The notes beneath the pieces were generated by a model. That model was given only the letters and a program-made list of their open reading frames with translations, ran no database searches and was not told the origin of the DNA. From positions 1,771,001-1,835,000 of the forward strand of contig NZ_CAJRAF010000001.1 of NCBI RefSeq assembly GCF_907164905.1: a stretch of DNA of 64,000 bases, read 5' to 3'. Both the position numbers and the translations under genes were made by a program. The stretch comes from Dyadobacter sp. CECT 9275. GTDB taxonomy: Bacteria; Bacteroidota; Bacteroidia; Cytophagales; Spirosomataceae. Below, piece by piece: positions 29,984 to 32,925 of this stretch (position 1 is the first letter of the stretch; each line of letters starts with the position of its first letter).

Positions 29984-30309
29984 ACTTCTTTGTTCCGATT
30001 TTTTATACCAGAGCCACTTTCGCGGCAGGATGCCTTACAGTGATTTTTGGCGCGCCCGGGTTGTTCTGGAAGTATCAGGATTTGCTCTTTTTCGGGCCTT
30101 TCACTACCCTGAACAGCACGTTTTTGTATTTTGTCTGGTAACCAGCTCCTTGTGGCATTGTGTCTATTGTGCGGCAGGGAAAATCTCTTTAATTTTTTAT
30201 AAAAACTGTTTGAATTGGCCAAAAAAAGTGGTTTTCCCATTTTGTAATGGCAGGGCAATCTCTATATTTACGAAATTTTAAATTCTTTAACCAAATCCTA
30301 ATCGTTCGC
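29984..30309. other. Spacer between the pigment cluster and hppA
   Basis: No gene with a credible start is seen. One plus-strand frame is open and hydrophobic from about 29990 to 30140 but lacks a start codon. The end of the spacer carries a promoter-like sequence for hppA at 30241-30270. No terminator hairpin for the pigment operon is recognisable. Confidence 0.5.
30241..30270 (+). promoter_or_regulatory. Candidate promoter of hppA
   Basis: TTTG at 30241-30244 is followed after 18 bases by TATATTTA (30263-30270), one base from the TAnnTTTG box. The expected leader is about 33 bases to the ATG at 30310. Confidence 0.35.
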
Positions 30310-32925
30310 ATGAGTTATATTACCTATTTAGTGCCGATTCTTGGCTTAATTGGCTTGCTGGTTATGTTTTTTAAGAGGGGATGGGTTGTCCGACAAGACT
30401 CAGGTGATCCTAATATGAAAGAAATTGCTGATGCCATTGCAGACGGTGCATTAGCCTTCCTCAAAGCCGAATGGAGAGTACTCATCATTTTTGGAATCAT
30501 TGTCAGTATACTTCTGGGATGGTCTGGAACGCTGGTGGAAAATTCCAGCGTATTCATAGGTGTGTCGTTCATTGCCGGGGCCTTCATTTCCGCCTATGCC
30601 GGATATATCGGCATGAATATCGCCACAAAATCAAACGTTCGCACTACGCAGGCTGCACGTACAAGCCTGAGTAAAGCACTGGAAGTATCCTTTACAGGTG
30701 GTTCTGTGATGGGTATCGGCGTGGCCAGTCTCGCTGTAATCGGTCTCGGGGGGCTGTTCATTATTCTCTATTATTCCTTTGTGAAGGAAGGTGCTGACGT
30801 AAACGGTGCGGCCATGGAAAAAGTGCTGGAAGTACTGGCAGGTTTTTCCCTCGGTGCTGAATCCATAGCGCTTTTTGCACGTGTAGGCGGTGGTATTTAT
30901 ACCAAAGCGGCTGACGTAGGTGCTGACCTCGTTGGTAAAGTGGAAGCGGGTATTCCGGAGGATGACCCGCGTAACCCGGCGACCATTGCGGATAACGTAG
31001 GCGATAACGTGGGTGACGTAGCCGGTATGGGTGCCGATTTGTTTGGTTCGTATGTTGCTACCATTCTTGCAACGATGGTTTTGGGGCGGGAGATTATTTC
31101 AAGCGGAGATAATTTCGGAGGTATTGCCCCCATTCTTTTACCGATGGTCATCGCCGGGGTCGGACTTGTGGCATCTATCATAGGAATGCTGCTGGTAAAG
31201 GTAACTTCCGATCAGGGAGATGTGCAGGGCGCATTGAACCGCGGAAACTGGGGCTCAATCATTATTACTCTTGTAGTATCCTATCCTCTGACCATGTGGA
31301 TGTTACCTTCCGGTTCGCTGGTGATCAGAGGAGTGGAGTTCGGTGCAATGGACGTTTTTTACGCTATTTTACTGGGTTCTGTTGTGGGTGCTATCATGGC
31401 GTATGTTACTGAGTATTACACGGCCATGGGCAAACGCCCTGTTCAGTCGATCGTGAATCAATCTTCCACCGGGCATGCAACCAACATCATCGGAGGACTT
31501 TCCGTTGGGATGGAATCTACTGTTATTCCGACGCTGGTATTGGCTGCTGGGATTTTTATCAGTTACGAATTTGCAGGTTTATACGGCGTTGCTATTGCAG
31601 CGGCAGGTATGATGGCTACCACTGCCATGCAGCTCGCTATTGATGCTTTCGGGCCGATTGCCGACAATGCTGGTGGTATTGCTGAAATGGCACATTTGCC
31701 GGAGGAAGTGCGCGGCCGTACGGATATCCTGGATGCTGTAGGAAACACCACGGCTGCCTCGGGAAAAGGTTTTGCAATTGCATCTGCTGCGCTCACTTCT
31801 CTGGCTCTTTTTGCGGCATTTTGTGGTGTAGCTGGTATCAGTGCTATTGATATCTACAAAGCTAACGTACTGGCGGGTCTGTTTGTCGGTGCGATGATAC
31901 CCTTCATTTTCTCTTCCCTTGCGATTGCGGCTGTGGGTCGTGCAGCCATGAAAATGGTGGAAGAGGTGCGTCGTCAGTTTCGTGAAATTCCGGGAATTAT
32001 GGAAGGTACTGCCAAGCCCGAATATGATAAATGTGTGGCTATCTCTACTCAGGCTTCCATAAAGGAAATGATTGCCCCAGGCTTGATAGCCCTGATCGTC
32101 CCGGTGCTCGTTGGTTTTCTTTTTGGACCTGAGGTATTGGGCGGTACGCTGGCTGGTGTAACGGTCTCGGGCGTACTAATGGGTATTTTTCAGAACAACG
32201 CAGGCGGTGCCTGGGATAATGCCAAAAAATCCTTTGAAAAGGGTGCGGTAATCAATGGACAGACTTATTACAAAAAATCGGATCCGCATAAAGCGGCTGT
32301 TACGGGGGATACTGTCGGTGATCCTTTTAAGGATACCTCCGGTCCTTCGATGAACATTCTGATCAAGCTGATGTCTATCGTTTCACTGGTGATTGCCCCG
32401 CATATCGCGGTTACCTCGCATGAGGCGGTAGAGGTAGTGGAAGTGATGGAAACACCGGTGGTTGTATCCGAAACTGCTATTCTGGAGCTGAACGGGATGA
32501 AACTGAATATTGCAGCCTCCGGTACTCCGGTAGAGTCTGCACTACTGGAGTTCATCCAATCGGATGCCAAAGCTGACAAGGAAACCTGGTTCGATTTTGA
32601 CCGTTTGTTATTTGAAACAGGCAGTGATAAACTTAAACCTGTTTCTCAGGAGCAACTTGAAAACGTGGCCGAAATTCTGAAAGCCTATCCGAACGTAAAA
32701 GTCAAACTCGGCGGTTATACGGATAATACCGGAGATTCCGTTGCTAACCTTAAACTTTCCACAGCAAGAGCCGAATCGGTGGAAGGTTCTCTTAGGGACC
32801 TGGGAATTGAGGCTTCCCGGCTGGAGTCCGAGGGGTATGGAGAAGAACATCCTGTGGCTTCCAACGAAACCGAGGAAGGAAGAGCTCAGAACAGAAGGAT
32901 TTCGATACGGGTGACGAGCAAGTAG
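30310..32925 (+). CDS. hppA: K+-dependent membrane pyrophosphatase fused to an OmpA-type peptidoglycan-binding domain
   Basis: An 871-residue ion-pumping pyrophosphatase. The pyrophosphate/Mg site signature is [11 protein letters not shown] (Asp202 to Glu212), followed by [29 protein letters not shown] has Ala482 where K+-independent enzymes carry Lys, so K+-dependent activity is expected; H+ versus Na+ cannot be decided here. After the last membrane helix (about residues 680-700) comes a linker and then an OmpA domain at about 760-871. Asp805 (GYTDNTG) and Arg820 (LSTARAES) are 15 apart, as in peptidoglycan-binding OmpA proteins, and NRRISIRV closes it. The ATG at 30310 is preferred over a frame opening at 30247. 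Membrane pyrophosphatases end outside the cytoplasm, so the domain would face peptidoglycan. Confidence 0.9.

Follow-up and report, generated by a model that had tools for sequence, protein, structure and literature searches.

An open reading frame in the window (the whole 64,000-nucleotide stretch of Dyadobacter sp. CECT 9275 DNA analyzed here) runs on the forward strand from position 30310 to position 32925 in one unbroken frame and encodes an 871-residue membrane pyrophosphatase, predicted to be a K+-dependent H+ pump, that ends in an OmpA-type domain. Pfam places the pyrophosphatase family PF03030, full length and with its catalytic motifs, at residues 13 to 695 (forward strand, 30346 to 32394; 884.7 bits), a core also recovered by Foldseek, and PF00691 at residues 767 to 862 (forward strand, 32608 to 32895; 69.9 bits against a curated cutoff of 27.2), a region that also matches solved OmpA-type relatives. 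A first-pass annotation of the window had described a complete pyrophosphatase core continuing in frame into an OmpA-type domain, and the single frame and the two Pfam matches bear out both parts of that description.

An alternative in-frame ATG lies upstream, at position 30247; we rejected it as the start because all 73 database proteins in our alignment, which includes the window's own, begin at the methionine encoded at 30310, so that M1 is invariant. Thirty-nine bases 5′ of the start codon is a weak candidate for a Bacteroidota-type promoter (TTTG, an 18-base gap, and TATATTTA; forward strand, 30241 to 30270). The pattern scanned for, TTTG-TANNTTT, the Bacteroidota consensus, occurs 7 times in the window against 6.4 matches expected by chance, and a sigma-70 scan gave 2 matches against 5.7 expected. 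Farther upstream, between 24836 and 29983, the window encodes two ketoacyl synthases, a polysaccharide deacetylase, a LolA-like protein, a FabA/ApeI-like dehydratase, and a glycosyltransferase with DUF2062, a set of genes that recalls those for aryl polyene or flexirubin synthesis.

It is virtually inconceivable that two separate genes were joined here by an error of assembly or sequencing: nothing was found in favor of such an error, and the same join recurs in independent genomes of many genera. A database search with the tail returned 759 proteins, and 119 of the best 120, which were listed, carried PF00691 together with PF03030, the co-occurrence in one protein that the first-pass annotation had proposed looking for. 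The names among these listed matches include Dyadobacter, Runella, Spirosoma, Larkinella, Fibrella, Rudanella, and Arundinibacter, the nearest named match being from Dyadobacter. A second search, with the tail from a genome of the same class and another order (G366), returned 1025 proteins, and both domains were present in all of the best 120 listed. The organisms named among those 120 were Chryseobacterium, save for one protein labeled Lupinus albus (P0216); this fused pyrophosphatase is of the Chryseobacterium type and is encoded on a contig of 4.8 Mb, so the plant assembly was most likely contaminated with bacterial DNA. Because both domains occur together in 119 of the 120 listed proteins, the join is seen in genomes of many genera, and purifying selection acts on the tail (see below), chance is excluded along with assembly error.

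The type of pump can be read from the residues of the ion gate. According to three published accounts (PMC5150537, PMC10897367, PMC6882861), K+-dependent pyrophosphatases have alanine at position 12.46, and the ion-gate glutamate is at 6.53 in Na+ pumps and others, at 6.57 in plant-type H+ pumps, and at 5.43 in the H+ pump of F. johnsoniae. The window protein has Ala482 at 12.46 (within GNTTAA; forward strand, 31753 to 31755), Glu184 at 5.43 (forward strand, 30859 to 30861), Gly246 at 6.53, and Ala at 6.57. For this numbering we assumed the anchors R191 (5.50) and D243 (6.50), which agree with an alignment to VrPPase. Glu184 is unchanged in all 73 aligned proteins, and glutamate occupies 5.43 in 45 of the 49 pyrophosphatase cores compared. 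Ala at 12.46 and Glu at 5.43, with no Glu at 6.53 or 6.57, is the combination of the Glu5.43 subclass of K+-dependent H+-pyrophosphatases; the 6.53 glutamate that marks Na+ pumps is replaced by Gly246. The window protein is predicted from these residues to be a K+-dependent proton pump. Since it has Ala482 and Glu184 without a Glu at 6.53 or 6.57, the database name for the group, “sodium-translocating pyrophosphatase,” is probably wrong, and the proteins of this group that carry the label, judged by their gate residues, probably pump protons. The F. johnsoniae H+-pyrophosphatase has the same residues (Ala at 12.46, Glu at 5.43, and no Glu at 6.53 or 6.57); set beside it on these residues, the window protein differs in carrying the OmpA tail. 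The window genome has one PF03030 gene and, in addition, a soluble pyrophosphatase of family PF00719.

An AlphaFold model built from the 73 fused proteins, rough and of modest confidence (mean pLDDT of 67.3, with values below 50 at residues 655 to 678 and 694 to 721), shows sixteen long helices, the last at residues 661 to 703 (forward strand, 32290 to 32418). This helix is followed by a disordered linker at residues 704 to 721 (forward strand, 32419 to 32472), by an accessory segment at residues 722 to 757 (forward strand, 32473 to 32580), of which residues 722 to 750 form a beta hairpin and a helix, and by the OmpA-type end. When the model was searched with Foldseek, the top 36 rows were solved pyrophosphatases with target TM scores of 0.83 to 0.87. 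The first OmpA row, 5wtp_C from Capnocytophaga, superposed at 5.5 Å over 132 columns; 5wtl_D, also a Capnocytophaga OmpA, did so at 1.2 Å over 103 columns with 44% identity, and other Capnocytophaga OmpA chains did so at 1.2 Å over 102 to 103 columns.

The VrPPase alignment and the model put the catalytic motif where helix 16 begins, on the same side as the PPi site in the cytoplasm. Because there are sixteen helices and the catalytic residues open the last of them, the C terminus of the pump would lie outside the cytoplasm, an assignment for which we took the membrane topology of the pyrophosphatase family as given; the model thus supports the periplasmic C terminus that had been claimed in the first-pass annotation. 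Both OmpA tails and tails of another type of domain, YceI, occur at this same end of other pyrophosphatase genes, which fits a periplasmic terminus.

What the tail might bind is suggested by PorE of Porphyromonas gingivalis, the C-terminal domain of which has been solved with a peptidoglycan fragment that is contacted by the side chains of Asp576, Asn584, and Arg591 (PMC7192894). The domain shares with the pump tail an OmpA_C fold and an Asp-Asn-Arg triad, Asp805 (forward strand, 32722 to 32724), Asn813 (forward strand, 32746 to 32748), and Arg820 (forward strand, 32767 to 32769) having exactly the PorE spacing of 8 and 15 residues, although PorE is an outer membrane lipoprotein of the type IX secretion system and the window protein is an inner membrane pump. 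The three residues also align with those of Acinetobacter baumannii OmpA (3td3). The first-pass annotation had pointed to Asp805 and Arg820, 15 residues apart, as a peptidoglycan-binding pair; the numbering and the spacing are correct as given there, but the match to PorE makes the contact set three residues rather than two, with Asn813 as the third member of the predicted triad. Peptidoglycan of the Bacteroidota is typically of the meso-diaminopimelate type; Asp805 is the predicted holder of the diaminopimelate amine, and Arg820 is predicted to form a salt bridge with its carboxylate.

Asp805, Asn813, and Arg820 are each unchanged in all 73 aligned fused proteins, and the triad is kept in all 13 proteins of another alignment, which shares 5 proteins with the first and adds 8 Chryseobacterium-type sequences from the other order. 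Among the long tails of the window's family, the triad is complete in 45 of 46, the remaining one having Ala in place of Asn. Some OmpA-fold domains act by protein contacts, as does YfiB, which is among the solved relatives, and the tail could in principle bind another periplasmic or outer membrane protein instead of peptidoglycan; the conservation of the very residues that contact peptidoglycan argues against this, and we regard it as very unlikely.

The coding sequence of the tail also bears the mark of constraint. Among 11 fused genes of genus g1 (55 pairs), median dN/dS was 0.018 for the core, 0.051 for the OmpA part, and 0.133 for the linker region, so that residues 701 to 757 had the highest value in that genus; synonymous sites are saturated in these comparisons (mean dS of 1.65 to 1.77 in g1) and several pairs yielded no estimate, so the values should be read for their order alone. 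Other genera resembled g1 but were less regular: the OmpA part exceeded the core in g35 and g47, about equaled it in g17, and fell below it in g43, while g36 yielded no value. Judged from these codon comparisons, the tail is under purifying selection, and because this selection goes together with triad invariance, the tail is best described as a selected domain with an intact predicted binding site.

A pyrophosphatase was present in 203 of the 222 genomes of the window's bacterial family and in 145 of the 148 genomes of a phylum-wide sample; in the latter, OmpA tails were seen in at least five genomes, the window's included, in the part of the long-frame genes that was read. Classified by tail length, 113 family genes, chosen for genus coverage rather than at random, comprised 46 with a full OmpA tail, 3 with shortened remnants, 1 cut by the end of a contig, and 63 with no more than 53 residues; tail state was set by length, and a YTD-type motif was present in the 46 long tails. 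Pumps without the tail occur in the same genus as fused ones. When 102 family cores were placed on a carefully built tree, the tail state changed at least 16 times, a number also obtained with a quick tree. The count ranged from 14 to 17 over 1000 bootstrap trees and was 12 when weak branches were collapsed; two of the changes on the careful tree fall within genus g1 alone. These counts are blind to direction, gain or loss. The careful tree was built without 11 of the 17 unfused g16 rows, and the class scored as fused took in the contig-cut copy (L127) along with the three remnant-like rows. One further gene, L029 of genome G013, is a fused gene split over several frames, either through sequencing error or because it is broken, and is absent from every tree.

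So many changes of state raise the question of whether the domain is merely a tolerated passenger, an old fusion of no use to the pump that is drifting away. The repeated changes, at least 12 on the 102-gene tree, would suit such a history, as would three copies that keep pieces of the OmpA domain (L008, L099, and L130) and four tail-free proteins (L110, L119, L121, and L133) that retain what looks, by eye, like the linker of their fused relatives. L130 is just above the PF00691 cutoff (28.4 against 27.2 bits), and L008 and L099 gave no PF00691 match in Pfam. These remnants and retained linkers point to loss of the tail in some cases. The passenger explanation is nevertheless hard to square with the purifying selection on the tail and its conserved triad, or with the finding of such tails on pyrophosphatases whose cores are distant and in Paucibacter and its relatives, and we think it unlikely. 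Even in the remnant L008, the 62 OmpA codons that are left have a dN/dS of 0.066 relative to its sister in genome G099, which counts against reading it as decay.

Not every change of state need be a loss. The tails of g22 and g36 group with those of g18, g29, g34, and g48 (support of 100/100), but their cores lie in the opposite half of the core tree, and because the two trees disagree on these genera, exchange of tails between genes is possible. The tails of genus g1, for their part, form one group (99/93). The core of family f36 is distant from those of the window's family (branch length of 1.26), yet its tail belongs to a clade that also contains most of the family's tails and the tails of f20 and f25 (97/94); a remote core with a tail inside this clade points either to an independent fusion or to transfer of the tail.

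The nearest free-standing relatives of the tail are proteins of about 420 residues, found in 8 genomes, that are 53 to 61% identical to the window protein from residues 728 to 732 through residue 871. All four that we tested (L142 to L145) contain both PF06078, the DUF937 family (64 to 92 bits), and PF00691, and their layout is a DUF937 part, one hydrophobic helix (seen by eye), a linker, an accessory segment, and the OmpA domain. They come from the same bacterial family as the window and bear the same accessory segment and triad as the pump tail, with the DUF937 part and the single hydrophobic helix in place of a pump. In other genera, the match to pump tails begins just past this helix, at about residue 219 to 286 of 440. 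The simplest history for the fusion would be that the post-helix part of a DUF937-OmpA protein became joined to helix 16. A single origin for all the pump tails is not established by the tail tree, in which they are set apart from the DUF937-OmpA rows at support of only 92/83 and with just four outside rows. Because the DUF937-OmpA proteins carry the segment and the triad after a hydrophobic helix, the accessory and OmpA module seems to act from the inner membrane in these proteins as well.

Across 48 genomes of the genus, the fusion and a DUF937-OmpA gene occurred together in 11, a fused or remnant copy alone in 4, the DUF937-OmpA gene alone in 2 (one of which, G024, had no pyrophosphatase match), and neither in 31. 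Fisher's test gives a p of 4e-6 for the co-occurrence, but on the tree it goes back to just one to two independent pairs, and we rejected a functional link between the two genes as unsupported beyond descent. Our search of open-license literature found no paper in which DUF937 is discussed together with OmpA.

The most likely reading of this fusion, in our judgment, is that the tail tethers the pump to the cell wall. Membrane pyrophosphatases are dimeric. A dimeric, K+-dependent, H+-pumping pyrophosphatase would expose an OmpA-type domain outside the cytoplasm on a flexible linker, and Asp805, Asn813, and Arg820 would grip the diaminopimelate of peptidoglycan, so that each dimer would be held to the wall non-covalently at two points. 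Moored in this way, the pump would move sideways less and would itself serve as a link between membrane and wall. Taken whole, as a wall-moored pump whose linker-borne domain grips peptidoglycan, this proposal seems to us rather probable. Because tail-free pumps exist, the link would be useful only in some lineages, and any benefit of the tail would be conditional, given the minimum of 12 changes of state on the 102-gene tree.

The flagellar stators MotB and PomB offer a likeness, for they too combine an ion-conducting unit in the inner membrane with an OmpA-type domain, which in their case has an anchoring role. The stator is a motor channel with one helix per subunit, whereas the window protein is an enzyme pump with sixteen helices. 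In the stators, the wall-binding part is also thought to gate the channel, and by analogy the pump's domain might bind the wall in such a way that tension or spacing between wall and membrane alters pump activity. In MotB and PomB a domain of this type occupies the corresponding end of the ion-conducting unit, and the pump's linker is attached to helix 16, where published work on the pumps places the ion-gate lysine K16.50. However, this linker is predicted to be disordered and evolves fast, which would make it a poor transmitter of force, and unfused relatives hold the same gate residues; such regulation is thus quite unlikely. Besides the stators, the likeness extends to the photosystem I subunit PsaB (PDB 7f4v_aB, presumably from Gloeobacter), an energy-converting membrane protein of 872 residues in which residues 753 to 864 match the OmpA domain, although its core is unrelated to pyrophosphatase.

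The first-pass annotation knew of no described function for such a fusion. The architecture is in fact already in print: according to a 2024 review, pyrophosphatases of Paucibacter and its relatives have OmpA-like C termini of about 110 residues, the role of which was stated as still to be elucidated (PMC11210485). Compared by description, the two cases share a PF03030-type core followed in frame by an OmpA-like C-terminal domain, but the Paucibacter example is K+ insensitive and the window protein is of the K+-dependent Glu5.43 type and comes from the Bacteroidota. This difference in pump subclass speaks for separate origins of the two fusions. A text search of that review gave no match to Dyadobacter or Spirosoma, and the four passages on Bacteroid organisms that it returned are unrelated to the OmpA-like domain. 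Among the papers listed in a search of open-license literature, judged by title or opening of the abstract, none treats the fusion in Bacteroidota, which is weak evidence of absence. The window protein adds another pump subclass and another phylum to the kind of OmpA-pyrophosphatase already reported; it stands out because its triad is conserved, its tail is under selection, and a single genus offers both fused and unfused pumps as a natural series. Membrane pyrophosphatases have mostly been studied as bare pumps; the fused proteins form a large, selected set with a probable wall anchor, and the close unfused pumps of the same genus are natural controls that make the question of mooring directly testable.

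OmpA is not the only domain found at this end of the pump. YceI-like tails, YceI being a periplasmic type of domain, occur in nine genomes of the same order under six family codes (L031, L064 to L067, and L071 to L074); the four tested matched PF04264 at 124 to 146 bits, and the other five were recognized by eye. Two database proteins likewise combine PF03030 with PF04264. Among seven YceI fusions, three (G248, G030, and G026) are on a Ser5.43 type of pump and four are on the Glu5.43 type. A peroxiredoxin tail (PF00578, 130.7 bits) is present in the 0.9-Mb genome G315 (L075 and L174), the tail in its relative G269 being only 26 residues long, and some f24 and f26 pumps have unnamed tails, six of which measure 68 to 145 residues, counted from the beginning of the SMNIL or SLNIL stretch of helix 16. 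It is possible, and we suggest it tentatively, that in this group of bacteria the extracytoplasmic C terminus of pyrophosphatases acts as an exchangeable socket to which OmpA, YceI, peroxiredoxin, and unnamed small tails have been repeatedly joined and from which they have been lost, physically coupling a PPi-driven pump to envelope tasks that differ between lineages, with wall mooring the commonest of these in the window's family.

The f18 pyrophosphatases (L068 to L070, L168, L169, and L178) share a C-terminal tail of their own. The two tested by Pfam had no OmpA match, hhalign gave a probability of 25%, and the Asp and Asn of the triad are absent by eye; the tail is perhaps a degenerate OmpA domain. 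The short tails of f26 pyrophosphatases (L147 to L150) have in common a FEGTEAEVKA-like motif, and two of them contain a cysteine-rich stretch.
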